Shown here piece after piece: positions 16,674 to 26,662 of a stretch of DNA of 64,000 nt; position 1 is the stretch's first letter, and each line of letters starts with the position of its first letter. The position numbers were made by a program, and so were the translations under genes. The stretch is from an uncultured Prevotella sp. (GTDB lineage Bacteria > Bacteroidota > Bacteroidia > Bacteroidales > Bacteroidaceae). The stretch is taken from positions 128,169-192,168 of the forward strand of contig CAKQMS010000001.1 in NCBI GenBank assembly GCA_934254985.1. Direction: 5' to 3'. The notes under the pieces were generated by a model. It had not been told where the DNA came from. It did no database searches and saw only the letters and a list, made by a program, of their open reading frames with translations.

Positions 16674-17768
16674 CTATAAGTTTGAAGCAGCTGACTGACG
16701 TGCGTTCCTTGATTCCGCCAATCTGTCATCAATATCCTTATTCATCTTCTTGTTGACGATAATCTTAGCTACAATCCATATTGCCAAATAAGCAAATGCA
16801 ACACCATAATTTGATAAATACCAAACAACAAAAAGAAGCAACCACAACCATTTCACAATGTTCTTTATCTTTTCCTTACCATTGACAAAATCAACCTCTT
16901 CTTGATCAACAGGATAAGTATAAGAATAATGCTGTCCAGTTCCGTCCATCATAAAGTTATACTTCTGATTGTCATAAGTATAATAAACAAACCAGAAAGG
17001 AACAAGCATGTACTCACCTTTAGTAGTTAAGCTACAACTAGAAGAAGCACGGAAATTTCGAATTTCCTGATTACCAATTTGATCTAACGCTGCTCGTTCG
17101 GCAGTATCGTCTACCAAGTTCTTACCATGCTTTTGCCAAACAAGTGTTTCATCAGCATTACGTGGTATTGTAATCAGATTAGAATCCTCTTCACCCAACA
17201 TTTCCGGATCGAACTTCTTTGACATCATCACATCATAAGGGAACTGCGACGTAAAGTTACGAAGTTCCTGAGGTAAGTCATCAGCACTTTCATTAGCAAG
17301 ACAAAGGAAACCAAAATTTCCAGAGGCATTACCATTCTGTGGACGCCATTTCTTTACATTTTTAGTACTAATCTTTTTACTATTGTCAGTCCAACTATCT
17401 GAGATTTTCACCTCTTGGTCGCTATAAGAAGACTCACAGCTCCATGAAGCCTGATATGTACCTTCATACAGATACATTGGGAGATAAGCACGGAACACAT
17501 TACCTGTATTAATTGCTTGGAATACATTCTTTGGAACATAATCTTGGTTGACCAAAGTATTTACCAAAGCACTTTCAAAATCCCCCTCCTGTGTCGTGAA
17601 AGGAATCATACGCTCAGGCATATCTTCCTTGCGAGTTTCTGCAACAGGATTAATGATTGTGTTTCCACATGCTGGACAAACTAAGGTTCTGTCAAATCTG
17701 CCGAATTTGGTAATCTTAGAACCACATGATGGGCAAGCAATCTTTTGTAATTCTCTTGTTTCTGCCAT
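16674..17768 (-). CDS. Zinc-ribbon membrane protein
   Basis: Protein of 364 residues and last gene of the UpxY-led operon. The N-terminus has a TFIIB-like zinc ribbon with cysteines at 12, 15, 31 and 34 (CPSCG and CPACG). A middle region of about 230 residues is soluble and tryptophan/tyrosine-rich (YLPMYLYEGTYQASW; LVPFWFVYYTYDNQKYNF). Two hydrophobic helices lie near the C-terminus (about 305-340). Zinc-ribbon proteins of this build commonly sit beside SPFH-domain proteins in bacteria, where their job is unknown. It starts 33 nt after the four-helix membrane protein gene. Role inferred: partner of the SPFH protein at the membrane. Confidence 0.65.
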   Translation of the reverse strand: MAETRELQKIACPSCGSKITKFGRFDRTLVCPACGNTIINPVAETRKEDMPERMIPFTTQEGDFESALVNTLVNQDYVPKNVFQAINTGNVFRAYLPMYLYEGTYQASWSCESSYSDQEVKISDSWTDNSKKISTKNVKKWRPQNGNASGNFGFLCLANESADDLPQELRNFTSQFPYDVMMSKKFDPEMLGEEDSNLITIPRNADETLVWQKHGKNLVDDTAERAALDQIGNQEIRNFRASSSCSLTTKGEYMLVPFWFVYYTYDNQKYNFMMDGTGQHYSYTYPVDQEEVDFVNGKEKIKNIVKWLWLLLFVVWYLSNYGVAFAYLAIWIVAKIIVNKKMNKDIDDRLAESRNARQSAASNL

Positions 17769-17801
17769 AAATTTAAGATTTAAATTGTTATTATTATATG
17801 A

Positions 17802-18494
17802 TTACTTATTATAAAGTCTATGCATACTAATTGCTGAGTTACGGCGTGAAATAACGACCTTTAGTTCTTTTGCCTTTTTAGATATCTCTTCAACACTTGC
17901 AGATGAATCTATGGCAAAGCACAAATCATCTACGGCCACCTGCATAGCAGTCTCAGCTTCCGCTACTTCAGGGAAAGATTCTCTTGGACTACTATTGACA
18001 GCATCAACACACAGTTTTACTAATCTTCGAGCTTCAACATCAGATACCATTCTCATACTTTCTCTTAATCGCAAAACCAAAGATTCAATGTTTATTGATT
18101 CAACTTCTTGTTTTTTAAGAGATTTATTCGTTGCATCATTTGCAAGAACACTTGACAGTTGAAGCACCAAAAAGATTGCCAACAATACAGATTGTACAAT
18201 AATAGCCCACGTATTAGTTTGCGGTTTAAAGTACATAAAAAGCAAACCTACTACTAATTCTATGATAAAATAAAAAAAGACGATGAGATATAGAGTAGAA
18301 GATTGTACCGACATTTTCTTGTTTGACAAGCAAAATAAAGGTGTTATCAGTATCATCAAGTAGGATACATGGATGAATCCATAACAAACCCAGTCCAAAG
18401 AGGTATGCTCTATTCCTCCAACTATAAAATAGAGGATATTAAACAAGGCTAAGAAAACAAGCCCTATAACCATTTTAAAAAATGCACTTTTCAT
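17802..18494 (-). CDS. Hypothetical four-helix membrane protein
   Basis: Protein of 230 residues from the ATG at 18494; a GTG one codon earlier is also possible. Four hydrophobic helices occupy about residues 1-125 (for example GLVFLALFNILYFIVGG and IVFFYFIIELVVGLLF). The last 100 residues are soluble and helical, with a likely coiled-coil (VSDVEARRLVKLCVD; SVEEISKKAKELKVVISRR). No family is recognised. It lies 10 nt after the SPFH gene and 33 nt before the zinc-ribbon gene, so it belongs to the same membrane-associated system. Function unknown. Confidence 0.6.
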   Translation of the reverse strand: MKSAFFKMVIGLVFLALFNILYFIVGGIEHTSLDWVCYGFIHVSYLMILITPLFCLSNKKMSVQSSTLYLIVFFYFIIELVVGLLFMYFKPQTNTWAIIVQSVLLAIFLVLQLSSVLANDATNKSLKKQEVESINIESLVLRLRESMRMVSDVEARRLVKLCVDAVNSSPRESFPEVAEAETAMQVAVDDLCFAIDSSASVEEISKKAKELKVVISRRNSAISMHRLYNK

Positions 18495-18507
18495 CACCGT
18501 TACCTTT

Positions 18508-19644
18508 TTACATTCTACTTAAAACTTCTGCAACCTTATCATCATATTGCTGTTGACTAATAAGTCCTGAATCCAATAATTTCTTCATCTTTACCAACAC
18601 ATCAGCCGGGTCTTGTGCCATTGAAGAGTTTGTTGGTTGAGCCTGCGCTGCGCCAAAACGATTTCCACCACCAAAGCCCATTGGTTGTTGAAATTGCTGT
18701 GGTTGTGGTTGCGCAAAAGCTGTTGTAGCCATTGTAGCAAAAGCATTACCTGCAGCCATTCCCAAGCCCAAGCCTGCGCCTGCACTTGCGACTCCACCAG
18801 CACCTGGATTAACTGAAATATTTTCAATTATTTCCTGCTGAACAGCCATACCATATTTTGGATCTGCAGCATATTTAGCTGCATTTAAACGTTTTCGAAG
18901 CTTCATTCGTTCCTCAGAATCGACAACTTGGAGTGAATTAAAAGAAAAATTATGAATACGAATTCCAAATTCGTCTAATGCATTTTGTATTTTAGGAGTT
19001 ACCTTTTCTGTAATATCATTAATATAAGGATACAAAGTATTTATAGATTCAGTGCGCGATATGTCAGAAACCATTTGAGCAACCAAGGCACCAATACGTT
19101 GTGTTATTTGAGCTTTAAAGAATTCTTTTAAATCTTCACTTGTAAATACACTGTTTCCACCCATCAATTTCTTATAACATTCAGCAGCAGCATTGTCATT
19201 CTCATCTATATCAAAATATATTTGAAAATCACCATTACCAATAACATCTGTAGGAACTCCATCACCATAATGATAATCCACACATTGTATGGGATCTTCT
19301 GTTCCCCATTTCATTGTTTGCATAGATGTTGTTACATGATAAACTTGACACGTAAAAGTTGACACTCCTCCAGAAAGCATATTACGAATACGTCCTAAGA
19401 CAGGAATGTTATCTGTAGCAACAACATGTCGTCCCGAATGAAGAACACCATAGAGAATGCCATTTTTGATAAAAATAACTTGCTCATTTGGAGCCACTGT
19501 TATCACAGACCCCATATTGAAGTCTTGTCGAGGGTCAATATAAATAAGAGCATCAACGTCCAACTGACGCTGTATAAACTCGACGATGTTACGACTGCCA
19601 CCTGCGAAGTTGGCATCATTCTCATTTCTATGAAATAATCCCAT
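18508..19644 (-). CDS. SPFH domain protein with C-terminal SHOCT motif
   Basis: Protein of 378 residues. The N-terminal SPFH (band 7) domain of the YdjI/virion-core-like branch runs from about residue 25 to 245, with the characteristic start (VEFIQRQLDVDALIYIDPRQDFNMGS appears around residues 21-46) and VAPNEQVIFIKNG. A helical segment (SEERMKLRKRLNAAKYAADPKYG) follows, then a glycine/alanine- and glutamine-rich linker (about 275-340). The last 33 residues, DVLVKMKKLLDSGLISQQQY onward, form a SHOCT oligomerisation motif. SPFH proteins form large membrane-linked rings that organise microdomains. No N-terminal signal or TM helix is visible, so it probably sits on the cytoplasmic face. Third gene after the ATPase in the operon. 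Confidence 0.85.
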   Translation of the reverse strand: MGLFHRNENDANFAGGSRNIVEFIQRQLDVDALIYIDPRQDFNMGSVITVAPNEQVIFIKNGILYGVLHSGRHVVATDNIPVLGRIRNMLSGGVSTFTCQVYHVTTSMQTMKWGTEDPIQCVDYHYGDGVPTDVIGNGDFQIYFDIDENDNAAAECYKKLMGGNSVFTSEDLKEFFKAQITQRIGALVAQMVSDISRTESINTLYPYINDITEKVTPKIQNALDEFGIRIHNFSFNSLQVVDSEERMKLRKRLNAAKYAADPKYGMAVQQEIIENISVNPGAGGVASAGAGLGLGMAAGNAFATMATTAFAQPQPQQFQQPMGFGGGNRFGAAQAQPTNSSMAQDPADVLVKMKKLLDSGLISQQQYDDKVAEVLSRM

Positions 19645-19660
19645 AATAATATAGATTTAA

Positions 19661-20416
19661 TTACTTTTTATGTTTATACTTAAAGTCTTCTATTTCCTTA
19701 CCAAGATCATCACGCTGAGTATTCAACTCTGATGCCTTGTTATTCAATTCTGATTCTGACTCTGGCTCCGTATTATCTTCCAACTCACGATTAGCTGCAT
19801 CCGCTTTACGATCCAAATCCTTATATTTATCTTCCATGTCATCAAGCATCTTATCATCTTCGGCTTCTTGTTCTGCCAATTCTTGTTGATTCACCTCTTC
19901 ATCCTCCCGTTGTTCTTTGGTTTCATCCTGCATCTCAGTTCCATCTTCATCCCAGCCATTGTCTGATTCTTCATTTTTTTCATTCTCTTCTTCAGATGTA
20001 TCAGAAGCATTATCCTCAGCCCATCCATCAGAAGAGTCACTGTCCTTCTCACCCAAAGAATCAGAACCTTCCATAGAATCTTCTACAGGAGAGTCCGATG
20101 TATCAGCAATATCATCAGAAACGCCAGTTCTTTCCCAATTGTCTGTTTGACCAAAGAATTGATCAAAACTATCGCCACGACCATCTTGGTCAAAGATTTT
20201 ATCAAATTCATCACTAGAATCATCTTGCTCTTGATCAAAGAGTTGATCAAATCCATCACCTCCAGGTTGGCCAAAGAATTGATCAAATCCATCTGGATCT
20301 GTACATGTATCACTATCGTCAAACTGATCAAATTCATCAGGTTCTATACCACAATCGTCAAATTGATCAAATCCATCAGGTTCTGTACATGTATCACAAT
20401 CGTCAAATTCACACAT
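19661..20416 (-). CDS. Acidic repeat protein with FDQF-type motifs and C-terminal coiled coil
   Basis: Protein of 251 residues, strongly acidic and low in complexity. The first 90 residues contain six spaced copies of a short aromatic-acidic motif, FDQF at 16-19, 29-32, 44-47 and 84-87, and the variants FDQL (56-59) and FDKI (71-74), with 12-15 residues between them. A serine/aspartate/glutamate-rich stretch follows (about 95-165), and the last 80 residues are a charged predicted coiled coil. Repeated short linear motifs of this type usually recruit several copies of a partner; the ATPase and the SPFH ring are the obvious candidates. It is 4 nt after the ATPase gene and 16 nt before the SPFH gene. 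No family recognised. Confidence 0.6.
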   Translation of the reverse strand: MCEFDDCDTCTEPDGFDQFDDCGIEPDEFDQFDDSDTCTDPDGFDQFFGQPGGDGFDQLFDQEQDDSSDEFDKIFDQDGRGDSFDQFFGQTDNWERTGVSDDIADTSDSPVEDSMEGSDSLGEKDSDSSDGWAEDNASDTSEEENEKNEESDNGWDEDGTEMQDETKEQREDEEVNQQELAEQEAEDDKMLDDMEDKYKDLDRKADAANRELEDNTEPESESELNNKASELNTQRDDLGKEIEDFKYKHKK

Positions 20417-20420
20417 AAGC

Positions 20421-23108
20421 TTATTTTTTAGTTAAAGATTCATATATTACTTTTGATGGTACATGCAAGAATGTATCATACTTAACATGCCTCCAAAAAT
20501 ACACTTTTACACAAGACAACAACTCTCTATTAAATGGTTCATCATTCAATTCCGACTTTATAAGACTACTTATCTTTGAAAGTACATTTTTAAGTTTTTC
20601 GACTTCTCTACATCCATTACCTACATATTTTTTAAATATGCGTCGAGCAACTTCCTTAGCCAACACCCTACGATTGTAATCACAGCTTGCTTGACAATAT
20701 GGACACAATTTACATTCGGGATAAGGACGCAGTTTATCTGCTTTATCATTCCAGTAAGTTGAAAGTTGACGAATGCCATCATCAGACAGAGATATGCTAA
20801 TATTATTATCCAGACGATAATCTGGTGTTATTATTTCCTCAGGCTCATCTAAGCGATTAAAAAATAAGAATGCTTCACCTGGTTTAAGTTTGGCTAATCG
20901 ATTGAGTTGCAAATCACTCATACTTGTAGAATCTGCCAATATTTCCTTGTCTTGCTTTTCCACCAATCTAAAGGCAACTTTAATATCTGTCAAAGCAACT
21001 ATATCTATACCCACCTTGCGTGGAGACTGGTCGGCAATTGCCATTCCAACTCCATAAGAACGTATTTCAGCAAGCATACGCTTGACCAAACCTTGCGCAA
21101 CAGCAGCAGGATTTGCCGAACCTTCACCGCCAGAATTAGTATCAGCATCCAACAACACATGTGCCTCTTCCAACAATATAAAGTTGCGCAGTCCTCCTTC
21201 ACCTATATAATTGGCATTAACATAAGATAAAATAGAAAGAAGTAATAAAGCTATTAGCAAAGCTTTCTGATCTGAATTCTCGATTGCCGCCAACTCGATG
21301 ACTGTAGGTTTAGATAACAAATCATCTATTGGTATAGAGAAATAGTTATCAAACAAATTCACGAGGCTTTTCAATCGTACTACACCTGCACGACCAATAT
21401 TCCTTGCATCTCCTGTGTAACCTATCTCTGCAAAGGTTTCTTGGAAGCATTTTACAAAATCTACAATATTAAATACACGCCCTTTATCCGCTACCGTATA
21501 TGAGTCCAACCACTTAAAATCAGAATAACAATTATTGATTGCATCCTCAAAAATCTTGTCCAAAGGAGTCGACATAGATACACCTGCAGCAAAAGCAGTC
21601 TTCAATGTTGACTTGTAGGTTTCCAAACGTACATTCTTTGGGGGAACAAAAGGATTAAAAACAAAAGGCGATATAAAATTTTTACCTGGAGTAAAGACCT
21701 GTAAATCAGGAATACTTTGCACTAATGACCTATATTCATTTTTTGCAGGTTCTATAACTAAAAATGGTATATGATGCTTTTTCCAAAGACGATCTAACAA
21801 TCCAACAGAAAAGGTTGTCTTTCCAGAGCCTGGTGTACCAACAATAAGCATATGCTTGGCCAAATCTTTAAGCGAAAGTCCAATAACATCATTTGTTGAA
21901 GCACGTAACTTTCCTAATTGCAAATCACCAGAATTAATCAGATTTTTGGAATAGGTACGACTATTTTTAGCAGCCTCATTCACATAATATCCAGCATTAA
22001 TTCTGTCACTTCCTATTGGTAATCTAAAGAAAGATACTGCTTCCTCTGCCGTTATGACATAAGGGAAACGATAAAACGCAGGAGAAACAACCCCACTATT
22101 CCATAATGCTACTTTTCGTTCACGATTGCAAATAATATCATTTGCCACCCATGGCAAAGTGAAGATATTTTCTGTACTTGTACCAAATTCATTAGTGGCA
22201 AGAGATACAAAATTCAAATTAGGGCTTTGACCTTTAGTTGTACCCAATTGTCCTAAAGTCCTTGTCGCAATGCCAGCTATCTCGTCCTTATTAGCCCATA
22301 CCAATATATTGTAGTTAAAAAGTGCTCTACTTTTATTATCGTTATAATAATGATAAACAGCAGCAATTCGATCGGCAGAAGAGATACTGACATTGCCAAT
22401 TTGCCCATCATTAACTCCTCGATTAAGCATACTGATATTTTGGTTTACTTGACTCAGTTCAGCAAGTTCCTCCTGGCTATAATAAGTAGGCATTAATTGG
22501 AATGACACTGCACAATAAGGATATTCTATCAAAACATTTGCAATGCGATCTAATTCAGGATAATCAAAAGGTAAAGTGTCAAAAGCATAACAAGCTGGAA
22601 AATAAGAATTCTGTAAATCTTCGATACGCTCGTCTTTAACAATTGCTTTCATTTCATGGTTGACCATCAAATTAGAACATAATGAAGAATATTCGTCTAA
22701 GTCAACCTGTTCGAACTCATATTTTCCACTTTTAAGAGTTGCCTTCAAAATATTAGCAAAAGTGTTTTGTAAAGTTTTACTCTGTTGCTCGTCTTGATAT
22801 ATACACCTAACAGAACAATACAAATCAACACTTGCTTGATAAGGCTGATTTTCCACAGGCTTTGAAATCCATGAAATGTCAAAAGAGACATCAACAACCT
22901 TTTGCAACTGTACATATAAGTCCTTGTATTGTTGATAAACCTCTGTCAACATACCGACCATATCCCTACCAGCTTGTTCTATTGTCAATTGTTGTCCTTG
23001 CACAGAATCATTTTCCGAAAGAATCGAGATATGTGGAATACTTGTTATATGGAATACCGTAAGGCAAATATATTCACCACTATTAATTCTAATTGTACTT
23101 TCCATCAT
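20421..23108 (-). CDS. HerA/DUF87-like ATP-binding protein with C-terminal cysteine cluster
   Basis: Protein of 895 residues. The C-terminal half is a HerA/VirB4-type RecA-fold ATPase: Walker A GTPGSGKTT at about 424-432, Walker B NFILLEEAH at about 642-650, and a downstream sensor-like ADQSP at about 692-696. A four-cysteine motif CxxCxxCxxxC (about 799-809) follows and may bind zinc or an Fe-S cluster. The first 410 residues form a poorly conserved N-terminal region without a recognised domain. HerA-type ATPases pump DNA or act as motors in repair and in several defence systems with a nuclease or NADase partner; no such effector gene is visible here. First gene after upxY, with 9 nt between. 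Confidence 0.8.
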   Translation of the reverse strand: MMESTIRINSGEYICLTVFHITSIPHISILSENDSVQGQQLTIEQAGRDMVGMLTEVYQQYKDLYVQLQKVVDVSFDISWISKPVENQPYQASVDLYCSVRCIYQDEQQSKTLQNTFANILKATLKSGKYEFEQVDLDEYSSLCSNLMVNHEMKAIVKDERIEDLQNSYFPACYAFDTLPFDYPELDRIANVLIEYPYCAVSFQLMPTYYSQEELAELSQVNQNISMLNRGVNDGQIGNVSISSADRIAAVYHYYNDNKSRALFNYNILVWANKDEIAGIATRTLGQLGTTKGQSPNLNFVSLATNEFGTSTENIFTLPWVANDIICNRERKVALWNSGVVSPAFYRFPYVITAEEAVSFFRLPIGSDRINAGYYVNEAAKNSRTYSKNLINSGDLQLGKLRASTNDVIGLSLKDLAKHMLIVGTPGSGKTTFSVGLLDRLWKKHHIPFLVIEPAKNEYRSLVQSIPDLQVFTPGKNFISPFVFNPFVPPKNVRLETYKSTLKTAFAAGVSMSTPLDKIFEDAINNCYSDFKWLDSYTVADKGRVFNIVDFVKCFQETFAEIGYTGDARNIGRAGVVRLKSLVNLFDNYFSIPIDDLLSKPTVIELAAIENSDQKALLIALLLLSILSYVNANYIGEGGLRNFILLEEAHVLLDADTNSGGEGSANPAAVAQGLVKRMLAEIRSYGVGMAIADQSPRKVGIDIVALTDIKVAFRLVEKQDKEILADSTSMSDLQLNRLAKLKPGEAFLFFNRLDEPEEIITPDYRLDNNISISLSDDGIRQLSTYWNDKADKLRPYPECKLCPYCQASCDYNRRVLAKEVARRIFKKYVGNGCREVEKLKNVLSKISSLIKSELNDEPFNRELLSCVKVYFWRHVKYDTFLHVPSKVIYESLTKK

Positions 23109-23117
23109 TATGAATTT

Positions 23118-23870
23118 TTAGAAATCAGTTCGTTTTTCAAGCATATTTTTGGGTATATATGCAGTAAACAGAGTTCCAACCCCTGAAATGACAACACCAA
23201 CTCTAGTGTGCCCTTTGATTCTGCAGACAAAACCTTCCAAGCCTGCAAACTTGCCAGCAACTATCTTAACAACACAATTCATCTCAAAGTTCATATTGTC
23301 GTCTGCTATAAATAGTTTATTATCATCATTGACTTCATTCCATCTAATGAAGCTATTCATTTGTTGCTCAGGTATCACCAAAGGCTTGATACCATTTTTA
23401 CCAATTTTCTTTCCTGTTTCATCCTTGTGGGGCACATAATAATGATGAAAGAAGTCAAGTTCGCCTTTCCCTACATAATGTTTCATTTCTGTCTCAGTGC
23501 TCTTAACAAACAGGAAATTGGGAATCAAGGACACTTGCTTGGTTTTGCGCTTGCCATTTAGGATACAGCATTTTTCTTTCATTGGCAAGAAGACCTCAAT
23601 TCCTTTTGCCTCAAGAAAAAATTTAGCTTTCTGTTCTTGTCCATACGCTGCCCTCATCAAAAACCAAACCGCCTCTTCTACATTGTCTGTAGAAGAGGCG
23701 GCAGATATATTATTTAGAGTACTATGAGCACTCTGTTTTGGCATATAGTTGGGGGTCACCCCATTATGAATACTATGGGGAGACGTGGAGACTTTTGATA
23801 CACCACTATTCAGAGAGTTTACTCCGTTATTTTGTCCTTTACACAAAGAGACAGACCTTTTATTAGGCAT
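23118..23870 (-). CDS. upxY: UpxY-type NusG-like transcription antiterminator
   Basis: Protein of 250 residues. The NusG N-terminal (NGN) domain starts at about residue 67 (AVWFLMRAAYGQEQKAKFFL) and the KOW domain is near the C-terminus (VVKIVAGKFAGLEGFVCRI). UpxY paralogues of NusG are loaded at the leader of their own operon in Bacteroides and stop premature termination; they usually head capsule operons. The first 66 residues are a low-complexity, serine/asparagine-rich extension; an internal ATG at 23744 (MPKQSAHST) is an alternative start. Here it heads an operon with ATPase and SPFH genes and no glycosyltransferases. The leader upstream is long and structured and ends in a terminator-like stem with a T-tract. 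Confidence 0.85.
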   Translation of the reverse strand: MPNKRSVSLCKGQNNGVNSLNSGVSKVSTSPHSIHNGVTPNYMPKQSAHSTLNNISAASSTDNVEEAVWFLMRAAYGQEQKAKFFLEAKGIEVFLPMKEKCCILNGKRKTKQVSLIPNFLFVKSTETEMKHYVGKGELDFFHHYYVPHKDETGKKIGKNGIKPLVIPEQQMNSFIRWNEVNDDNKLFIADDNMNFEMNCVVKIVAGKFAGLEGFVCRIKGHTRVGVVISGVGTLFTAYIPKNMLEKRTDF

Positions 23871-24198
23871 ATAGATAGACTATTATAACATAAAAAAGAA
23901 AAAGCGGGGATCATGCCTAGTTACCCATTCTACAAACTGAGGTCCTGAGATTACCCATCATCGTTGAATGAGCAACCACAGACCCCACGCCGATATGAAT
24001 TATATATACGAAGATATAATCATACAACGTGACATCTGCTAGTTGCCATGTTCTTGACGATGATTTGAAATTTCTCAGGTTTCAGTTTGTCATGAACTAG
24101 CGCGTAGCAAACGCCCTTCCAAATTTACATTGTCCCCATTCCCTTGCTGAATCCGACATTTTTAATGCATTCTTCAGCTATCGGCATGAGTACAATAG
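23871..24198 (-). promoter_or_regulatory. Structured leader of the UpxY operon with terminator-like element
   Basis: About 320 nt lie between the predicted transcription start and upxY. Read on the minus strand, a helix pairs 24095-24100 with 24039-24044 (CTAGTT/AACTAG) and extends by CATG/CATG. Near the end, GCGTGGGGTC (23990-23981) can pair with GATCCCCGC (23912-23904), which is followed at once by TTTTTCTTTTTT, as in an intrinsic terminator, about 20 nt before the upxY ATG. A direct repeat TTACCCAT (plus strand, 23921-23928 and 23951-23958) sits in the loop. A 20-codon open frame (ATG at 24148 on the minus strand) could be a leader peptide. Confidence 0.55.
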
Positions 24199-24230
24199 CA
24201 AAAGTACAACAAATATATATAACTTCAAAA
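24199..24230 (-). promoter_or_regulatory. Promoter of the UpxY-ATPase-SPFH operon
   Basis: -33 TTTTG at 24230-24226 and -7 TACTTTTG at 24206-24199, separated by exactly 19 nt, an excellent match to the Bacteroidetes consensus. Transcription would start near 24192. Confidence 0.75.
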
Positions 24231-25263: not shown

Positions 25264-26652
25264 TTATTTCGTACCACCTCCAAGAGCAGAGTATAGACTA
25301 ACTACAGCCTGCATCTTATAGAAGTCGTCGGTGACCTTAGAAATTTGGGCATTGAGAAGGTTTGCCTGAGCGCTGATAACCTCGAGGTATGTTGTACCGC
25401 TGCTCATATAGAGCTGACGAGTATCTTCAACATTCTTTGTATAGAGGTCGATGTTCTTTGCATCATACTCAGACTTCTCAGAATAAGTGTTGTAGCTTAC
25501 GAGAGCGTTGCCAACCTCATTACCTGCCTTGAACACAGCATTCTGCCAGCTATTGAAAGCCTGCTCCTGCTGAGCCTTTGCAACCTTCAAGCCTGCGATA
25601 AGCTGACCATTAGCAAAGATAGGCTGAGTAAGGCTACCAACAGCAGATAGCAACCACTTACCAGGATTAACGATGCCAGCACCTGCACTATTAGTATATG
25701 TGGCAGCACCAGAAATCTTGATGCTTGGATAGAAGCGGCTACGGGCAGTCTGCACATCGTGGAAGCAAGCAGCGAGCTTCATTTCTGCAGCATGGACATC
25801 AGGACGATTGTTCAAAAGCTGAATGCCAACACCTGTGCTAAACTCAGTAGGCAACTGCTGAGCATCTATAGTAGAACGCTTAATCTGCTGACCTGGCTGA
25901 TTAAGGAGAAGGCAGAGAGAATTCTCTGTTTCACGAATCTGACGATTCATATCAGCAGCCTGCGATTTAACAGAATAGTAGCTTGCTTCAGCGCTCTGAA
26001 CACTTGTAGAGCGTGCGCGACCATACTGCATCTGCAGAGCCATCATATCCCAAGTCTCCTTTGTTATCTTCTCCATCTCGTCGAGGATTTCCTTCTGGCG
26101 GTCGAGCATCAAGAGAGTATAGTATAGGTTTGCTACACCAGTAACAATCTGACTCTTCACTGCCATCTGATAATCCCTTGTAGCGAGGAGCTGCATCTGA
26201 GCATTACGCTTTACAGAAAGCAGATTGCCGAAGAGGTCGACACTCCAGCTTGCAGCCACTGGCAACTGATAAGTCTTAGAAGTCTTGGCGCCATCCCATG
26301 ACGAGAGAGTACCCTGAGGGTTGATAGCAACAGAAGGCAAGAACGCAAGTTTAGATATCAAGAGTGTAGACTCTATCATCTTAACATTGAGAGCCGCATT
26401 CTGCAAGTCAACATTCTTTTCCAAAGCCTGCTGGATAAGAGCCTGAAGCTGAGGGTCGGTGAAGACGCTCTGCCAAGGCAGATTACCGAAGCTTGTGGTG
26501 TCGTTGACAGCAAGAGTGTCTGTATTAGATACAGCATCGCGGATGATGCCCTTAGTATCTATATTGTCAGGACGCTCATACTTATTGTAGAGTCCGCAGC
26601 TGCTCATCAAAGCAGCTGCCGACAATAGTGTTATTATTTGTTTCTTGTTCAT
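25264..26652 (-). CDS. TolC-like outer-membrane efflux lipoprotein
   Basis: Outer membrane factor of 462 residues of the RND efflux family (NodT/OprM type). The signal peptide ends in a lipobox (ALMSSCG), so it is a lipoprotein. The paired long helical regions typical of TolC are visible (ALEKNVDLQNAALNVKMIES; AQQEQAFNSWQNAVFKAGNEV), as are the strand segments between them. It forms the outer-membrane channel for the pump encoded just upstream. The ATG at 26652 was chosen; a TTG three codons earlier is less likely. It begins 10 nt after the AcrB-like gene, so the two are translationally close. Confidence 0.9.
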   Translation of the reverse strand: MNKKQIITLLSAAALMSSCGLYNKYERPDNIDTKGIIRDAVSNTDTLAVNDTTSFGNLPWQSVFTDPQLQALIQQALEKNVDLQNAALNVKMIESTLLISKLAFLPSVAINPQGTLSSWDGAKTSKTYQLPVAASWSVDLFGNLLSVKRNAQMQLLATRDYQMAVKSQIVTGVANLYYTLLMLDRQKEILDEMEKITKETWDMMALQMQYGRARSTSVQSAEASYYSVKSQAADMNRQIRETENSLCLLLNQPGQQIKRSTIDAQQLPTEFSTGVGIQLLNNRPDVHAAEMKLAACFHDVQTARSRFYPSIKISGAATYTNSAGAGIVNPGKWLLSAVGSLTQPIFANGQLIAGLKVAKAQQEQAFNSWQNAVFKAGNEVGNALVSYNTYSEKSEYDAKNIDLYTKNVEDTRQLYMSSGTTYLEVISAQANLLNAQISKVTDDFYKMQAVVSLYSALGGGTK

Positions 26653-26662
26653 GGTGTTCAAA

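Follow-up and report, generated by a model that had tools for sequence, protein, structure and literature searches.

A six-gene operon on the minus strand of a 64,000-nt stretch of DNA from an uncultured Prevotella sp. (contig CAKQMS010000001.1; the whole stretch is referred to here as the window) encodes what we think is probably the Bacteroidales version of a widespread and laterally transferred system, a HerA-driven membrane machine that would move proteins with acidic heads. The real unit appears to be the succession of ATPase, acidic protein, SPFH protein and four-transmembrane (four-TM) protein genes, and outside the window's clade the acidic gene often seems to be that of a polymorphic toxin, with an acidic head and swappable ends. 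The original prediction for this DNA had described a UpxY-led operon encoding a membrane-anchored motor assembly, possibly for defence or envelope stress, and had overlooked the acidic protein's apparent place, which is that of the polymorphic toxin in relatives.

A conserved gene set across ten phyla

A pattern scan of one genome per species (84,980 species) gave 252 stretches in which a relative of the window ATPase is encoded, and the best 80 of these 252 were analysed as loci; among 7996 proteins scored, 1961 match the ATPase. The order ATPase, acidic open reading frame (ORF) or ORFs, SPFH gene and four-TM gene, as delimited by our own ORF caller, recurs across ten phyla, and where at least 5.5 kb of sequence follows the ATPase gene (44 loci), the SPFH gene is present in 42 loci and the four-TM gene in 35. 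An acidic ORF (by the looser of two criteria) lies between the ATPase and SPFH genes in 45/51 loci having both. The Akkermansiaceae locus L072 has the same genes in a different order. Relatives of the zinc-ribbon membrane protein that ends the window operon were found in 21/80 loci (window included), and five of those used in alignment A3, encoded upstream of the ATPase, are only 16–19% identical to the window protein. Other recurrent upstream neighbours (Pfam run on one member of each cluster) are a zinc-ribbon TPR protein (48 loci), a ~230-aa protein that matches no Pfam family (41 loci) and a YidD protein (19 loci). A UpxY relative is found in 1/80 loci, the window itself, and because of this we reject UpxY as part of the machine; it is a locally added regulator.

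A quick tree of the ATPases (79 rows, being 78 loci and the window, with L070 and L079 left out) spans ten named phyla, and the labels require 15 changes where the least possible number is 10. The window belongs to a group of 15 rows that has full support in the Shimodaira–Hasegawa-like approximate likelihood ratio test (SH-aLRT), made up of 13 Bacteroidota (window included), the Verrucomicrobiota locus L072, and L020, which is labelled Bacillota. It should be noted that L020 is a contig labelled Paenibacillus with an operon and leader of the Bacteroidales type; it may be a mis-binned metagenome contig, and for this reason it does not count here as proof that the operon was transferred to the Bacillota.

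The ATPase was found in 4/398 genomes of a genus sample, 2/393 of an order sample and 4/297 of a family sample (the genome taken as the centre is included in each count, and one of the last four ATPases is only 35% identical), and each of six ATPase-bearing genomes searched gave one ATPase match. The module is thus conserved and rare in related genomes, neither a core and invariant set nor a collection of genes scattered in relatives. What survives of the predicted motor assembly is a conserved module of ATPase, SPFH and membrane proteins moving between lineages, to which UpxY does not belong. No ATPase relative was found in viral contigs, while six related records in the plasmid collection have 32% identity at best and two unannotated records in the phage collection have 28%, matches so distant that the plasmids and phages of those collections therefore include no close relative.

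Acidic heads and toxin ends in relatives

Our strict criterion for an acidic head (first 80 residues with at least 25% aspartate or glutamate, D/E, and at most 6% lysine or arginine, K/R) selects 40/82 ORFs between the ATPase and SPFH genes compared with 17/1067 other ORFs, and 16 of these 17 take the first or second place behind the ATPase gene in loci where no SPFH gene was found downstream. The motif [DE][FYLM] occurs within the first nine residues of 45/58 heads but in only 206/1019 ORFs of the loci (cargos, the proteins in this position, included), and the first K/R has a median position of residue 39 in the heads and 5 in all ORFs. Because of the wide spread of this position (quartiles 3 and 149), we regard a K/R-free start as common, not general.

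Toxin-type domains above cut-off are carried by 8/20 proteins of the cargo position that were scanned singly, with papain-fold glutamine deamidase (Gln_amidase) domains in the L036 and L038 cargos, TNT domains in L040 and L053, WHH/colicin DNase domains in L043, L048 and L062, and a C39-like domain in L078. A scan of 58 cargos including that of the window (E<=0.001; one protein may match several families) gave DUF6782 metallopeptidase (9), SprT-like (7), WHH (3), Colicin-DNase (3), Gln_amidase (3), TNT (2), C39 (2), DUF3920 (1) and M76 (1) matches. A small, non-acidic and immunity-like ORF follows the acidic ORF in 18/38 loci outside the window's clade, and two of ten such small following ORFs that were scanned encode SUKH immunity proteins, both behind WHH toxins. 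Related ends are shared among 34/44 acidic proteins outside the window's clade, and these ends do not simply follow the ATPases: those of L021 and L048 are 94.8% identical and the last 220 residues of their cargos are unrelated (the L021 cargo runs to the contig end and its very end may be missing), and those of L021 and L013 are 68% identical and the cargo ends are related at E 4e-52. Such swapping of toxin ends between near-identical machines is the hallmark of polymorphic toxins. We also note that in L024 five tandem small proteins, multi-TM by eye, are encoded between the ATPase and toxin genes (L024:12703-15816), and that one or two such proteins, again multi-TM by eye, occur in L004, L007, L026 and L032.

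The operon of the window and its acidic protein

The operon and the leader in front of it consist of the following features.

24199..24229, minus strand: promoter-like site of the Bacteroidetes type (TTTG, 19 nt, TACTTTTG), a pattern match
23897..24190, minus strand: structured leader RNA with an intrinsic-terminator-like hairpin and U run at its end (terminator half 23897-24003)
23118..23870, minus strand: upxY, encoding a UpxY-family NusG-like transcription antiterminator (NF033644 124.6 bits, cut-off 100)
20421..23108, minus strand: HerA/DUF87-family ATPase, 895 aa (DUF87 38.4 bits, cut-off 23.2)
19661..20416, minus strand: acidic FDQF-repeat protein, 251 aa, occupying the toxin or cargo gene position of relatives
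18508..19644, minus strand: SPFH protein (Band_7_1 77.8 bits, cut-off 24)
17802..18497, minus strand: four-TM membrane protein with a GTG start and a C-terminal non-membrane region (hydropathy; 24-sequence alignment A4)
16674..17768, minus strand: zinc-ribbon (two CxxC) membrane protein with C-terminal TM helices (alignment A3; AlphaFold2 model)

The six ORFs at 23870-16674 (-) are separated by gaps of 9, 4, 16, 10 and 33 nt, as tight as had been predicted, and the earlier identification of the UpxY protein, the HerA/DUF87 ATPase and the four-TM protein (four segments by hydropathy) stands. The protein predicted to be SPFH-SHOCT is an SPFH protein whose C-terminus matches SHOCT only weakly, below the cut-off (18.2/27 bits), and of the predicted zinc-ribbon TM protein the TM part was recovered as two overlapping segments by hydropathy, with zinc-ribbon families in Pfam matching only below cut-off. 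Residues C12, C15, C31 and C34 of this last protein are invariant in alignment A3 and its AlphaFold2 model is of fair confidence (predicted local distance difference test, pLDDT, 83.9; predicted template modelling score, pTM, 0.68). Sequence searches of the PDB gave no match for the SPFH protein, no meaningful match for the four-TM protein, matches confined to the zinc-ribbon part and mostly ribosomal for the zinc-ribbon protein (E 0.0011 or weaker), and three HerA/helicase chains for the ATPase (E 1.6e-6 or weaker).

The ATPase has one DUF87 domain, with FtsK_SpoIIIE below cut-off (21/24 bits), a Walker A motif (GTPGSGKT), the motif LLEEAH and the C-terminal cysteines C799, C805 and C809. The CxxCxxCxxxC motif reported earlier is present in the window protein but is not wholly conserved, as in the 52-sequence alignment A2 (43–74% identity to the window ATPase) C799 is invariant, C805 and C809 are kept in at least 90% of sequences and C802 is not kept. 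A side observation is that the ATPase (20421-23108) weakly matches NF033849 ('serine-rich protein'), the C-terminal part of which resembles the same ATPase, and this family is perhaps a fused cousin of it.

The acidic protein has 93 D/E and 20 K/R residues and six FDQF-like repeats, in agreement with the original prediction of an acidic FDQF-motif protein, and its first 72 residues are K/R-free, with the first K/R at residue 73. It has no Pfam domain, either in a single scan or in the scan of the 58 cargos, and the L001 acidic protein likewise gave no Pfam match on a single scan. One relative was found among 998 candidates, and this shares the MCEFDD start and the FDQFFGQ motif. As far as sequence comparison can tell, the window's clade keeps the machine and the acidic protein with no recognised toxin end or immunity gene; in this Bacteroidales branch the acidic protein may itself be the exported product, toxins may be encoded elsewhere, or the branch may have some other function.

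A proposed membrane machine

In the machine that we favour, a HerA-type ATPase, hexameric by family, would be held at the inner membrane by an SPFH ring together with the four-TM and zinc-ribbon TM proteins, would recognise the K/R-poor acidic N-terminal head of a partner protein, and would thread or push this partner across (or along) the membrane, presumably outwards. Among Clostridia, Planctomycetes, spirochaetes and others this partner often has a toxin domain at its end, and its gene often has an immunity gene behind it; in the window the partner is a toxin-less acidic protein, and the operon would be switched on when UpxY lets RNA polymerase pass the leader terminator. The gene set, the acidic heads, the toxin and immunity domains, the swapping of toxins and the leader family are seen in the sequences themselves, and the movement of the acidic protein by the ATPase, its direction, the assembly of the ring and the contact of UpxY with the leader are inferred. 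Analogies for the tethering and the motor are provided, in the accessible parts of the sources, by B. subtilis YdjI, which needs YdjG and YdjH for its recruitment to the membrane (PMC8581546), by CedD and VirB4-type pumps (PMC11868833), and by the FtsK-type ATPase of type VII secretion systems (T7SS; PMC3482391).

A number of observations weigh against this reading. Two of the 44 loci with sufficient downstream sequence (L036 and L067) have no SPFH gene, 12/20 of the singly scanned cargo-position proteins have no domain above cut-off, 20/38 loci outside the window's clade are without an immunity-like ORF, and many of the relatives are from metagenome assemblies. Within the window's clade, an immunity-like gene follows the acidic gene in 0/13 loci with ATPase and SPFH genes, and the ends of the 14 acidic proteins are unrelated to those of all 44 others and have no HExxH motif; nor were WHH, Gln_amidase or DUF6782 found in eight ATPase-bearing Bacteroidales genomes, a search in which the WHH and Gln_amidase controls were silent. 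No outer-membrane component is apparent among the six genes, and the nearby OEP-type gene (25264-26661) lies with an RND pump. In addition, HerA relatives are mainly known for moving DNA.

A bolder proposal, which we hold only tentatively, is that this is an undescribed cross-phylum secretion system in which a HerA motor would work with an SPFH ring and small membrane proteins, an acidic K/R-poor N-terminal tail would direct export, and interchangeable toxins would have a delivery platform; in the Bacteroidales branch UpxY and the leader would control the export of a toxin-less acidic protein, or of toxins encoded at other sites. Literature searches combining SPFH with polymorphic toxin, HerA with SPFH, and DUF87 with SPFH did not find this gene set described in the material they covered, most subscription papers and bioRxiv preprints being outside it. 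The set might be seen as a variant of polymorphic-toxin machinery, with the possibility of a new secretion system.

Comparison with known systems and alternative explanations

Relatives outside the window's clade resemble polymorphic toxin systems, as described in the available text of Zhang et al. 2012 (PMC3482391), in that exchangeable C-terminal toxin domains (WHH, TNT, papain-fold and peptidases) follow an N-terminal trafficking region, with immunity genes, SUKH among them, next to some of the toxin genes; such variable ends are seen in these relatives but not in the window protein. They differ from these systems in their head, a K/R-poor acidic repeat, and in a partner machine of the HerA–SPFH–four-TM type, whereas the same text, in its accessible part, mentions HerA/FtsK ATPases only for T7SS and (FtsK-related) type IV secretion systems. 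Like T7SSb (EssC/YueA), the set links an FtsK/HerA-superfamily ATPase to polymorphic toxins, but it has one DUF87/HerA domain where EssC/EccC have several FtsK domains, no WXG100 or LXG was seen among the nine families in the 58 cargos or among the matches of the six window proteins, and it includes SPFH and Bacteroidales members.

HerA anti-phage systems, which we take to have a nuclease or SIR2 partner, are also distinct, as the ATPase scores 33.5 bits with the NCBIfam HerA anti-phage model compared with a curated cut-off of 800 bits and no nuclease or SIR2 family is among the matches of the six proteins. We nevertheless considered an intracellular guard, in which the toxin (here the acidic protein) is kept inactive on an SPFH/membrane scaffold and is released or remodelled by the ATPase when a phage or other invader perturbs the membrane or DNA, with the immunity genes acting as antitoxins. 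This would suit an operon without an outer-membrane part, and the role in phage defence raised earlier retains a weak signal, as PADLOC defence-ATPase models match the ATPase weakly (MADS mad8 51.4 bits and HerA 47.3 bits) with no PADLOC match for the other five proteins. Six PADLOC families are represented by nine matches (E<=1e-15) among the 93 flanking proteins of 11 Bacteroidales loci; four of the nine are to AbiD, and AbiD genes lie near 4/11 of these loci. However, the toxin ends and SUKH immunity proteins are of polymorphic-toxin types, which are deployed between cells according to the available part of PMC3482391, near-identical machines carry different toxin ends, and the listed Pfam families (25) of the other window ORFs, which lay outside the PADLOC scan, are for housekeeping or transport; we therefore think a guard unlikely.

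Rather improbable, too, is an envelope-stress module of the pspA-ydjGHI kind, in which SPFH, membrane and zinc-ribbon proteins would survey the membrane, the ATPase and acidic protein would be accessory remodelling factors, and the toxin-less Bacteroidales branch would represent an ancestral or reduced use. The pspA-ydjGHI operon of Bacillus subtilis, a species which is among the control genomes with PF13421, also combines an SPFH (Band_7_1) protein with membrane proteins, one of which, YdjG, has a zinc ribbon (PMC9239133, in the part available), the recruitment of YdjI by YdjG and YdjH fits such a role, and the window has no recognised toxin or immunity gene. Against this, no PspA family is among the matches listed for the six proteins (for the zinc-ribbon protein, 25 of 28 are listed), the window has a HerA ATPase and acidic protein instead, this ATPase is highly conserved and paired with an acidic ORF in most loci, and a rare accessory distribution is ill-suited to a general stress response. 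A DNA-translocating machine (CedD/VirB4-like), with the acidic protein as DNA mimic or regulator, we regard as very improbable, for although CedD, essential for DNA import in Saccharolobus (PMC11868833, in its accessible text), is the best NCBIfam similarity of the ATPase (81.5 bits, E 5.3e-23), this score falls well short of the 600 set as the CedD cut-off, the seven neighbour clusters found in at least 19 loci include no recognised relaxase or pilus gene (cluster 4 having no Pfam match), and the toxin ends would be left unexplained.

Leader RNA and probable control by UpxY

The region 23880-24190 folds at -108.5 kcal/mol (z -7.6 compared with shuffles), and in the terminator half, which ends in a U run, 99.6% of cells are paired with 21 both-sided changes compared with 5.0 in shuffles (this structure was derived from the same alignment, the rows of which are related). 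The promoter-like site upstream was called with a -33/-7 pattern which we take to be the Bacteroidetes consensus, and a similar pattern lies upstream of only 2/9 other leaders looked at. Our covariance model R1 matches the window leader at 93 bits (the window row is in the model), and Rfam gave no match at gathering score and one chance-level match below it.

Leader relatives were found by DNA similarity in 20/200 genus genomes and by R1 in 70/100 (the centre genome is included in both). Among 19 placeable loci of the first search (L122 left out; L083/L084 duplicate system loci) a UpxY-family gene lies within 40–70 nt in six and another ORF in the rest, and a UpxY-family gene is also next in six of 30 loci fetched with R1, some of them the same places as in the first search. 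We note that this is a multi-copy leader family of Prevotella-type genomes (window 23897-24190 (-); L105-L124 and L127-L156) which precedes upxY and many other genes, and that some of the downstream products by eye resemble secreted repeat proteins or LytTR regulators.

R1 matches were found in 10/17 Bacteroidota-type loci (L020 and L072 counted there) compared with 0/17 others, heading the operon in the window, L003, L005-L010 and L020, and preceding an upstream gene in L023 (the window, L005, L006 and L008 rows are in the model). Further weak matches occur 7 kb away in L008 (29.6 bits) and on the opposite strand of the same place in L005 and L008 (21.7 bits). In other Bacteroidales copies of the operon the leader stands directly before the ATPase gene with no upxY gene between. 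The natural reading, by analogy, is that the leader is an attenuator which UpxY would operate by contact, because in leaders that precede upxY, UpxY proteins keep transcription from terminating prematurely (PMC7819879); LoaP is a NusG paralog which acts through a leader hairpin (PMC12691694), both as described in the accessible text of these sources. A second terminator-like hairpin (15 pairs with a T-rich tail) lies inside the upxY frame (window 23702-23668 (-)) and is a possible further read-through point. The arrangement, with upxY in first place after a leader carrying a terminator-like hairpin, is that of the UpxY-controlled capsule operons of Bacteroides, but polysaccharide genes are absent here and a capsule function was rejected, as none of the six genes is a glycan gene, which is as the original prediction had stated. 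No description of the leader for Prevotella was found in the literature searched.

Genomic context and probable acquisition of the operon

The operon was also correctly suspected of being AT-richer than its neighbours, with 36.7% G+C compared with 42.9% in the rest of the window and 0/213 windows of the same length outside the operon having G+C as low. The 46 other ORFs match 57 Pfam families, and those listed (25) are for housekeeping or transport, including MreB, MreC, a penicillin-binding protein, queuosine synthesis and TypA. This looks like one inserted operon within a core region, which was probably laterally acquired; a surrounding defence island was rejected on the basis of these listed families (Pfam only). 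A comparison of genomes G051 and G048 did not find a clean empty insertion site: both, 82% identical over typA-rpsO, carry other DNA beyond rpsO, and in G048 the lpxA-efflux block is ~8 kb further on with rearranged genes in between.

Around operon copies elsewhere we observed an Abi_2/AbiD-type gene on the opposite strand upstream of the operon in L003, L005, L006 and L008 (Pfam run on the L003 gene), a Mob_Pre relaxase (L006:8070-9731, cluster in four loci) and a phage-type integrase (L054:4894-5808, cluster in eight loci; Pfam run on one member of each cluster).

Significance

If the proposal of a secretion system is true, bacteria of about ten phyla would share a machine for the delivery of toxins or other proteins that stands outside the named secretion types and uses an unusual signal, a long acidic tail poor in lysine and arginine, and SPFH proteins would gain a place in protein traffic together with a directly testable substrate. 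In the leader RNA, UpxY-type antiterminators have a defined candidate target, by which the machine is also connected with a group of Prevotella genes, upxY itself among them.

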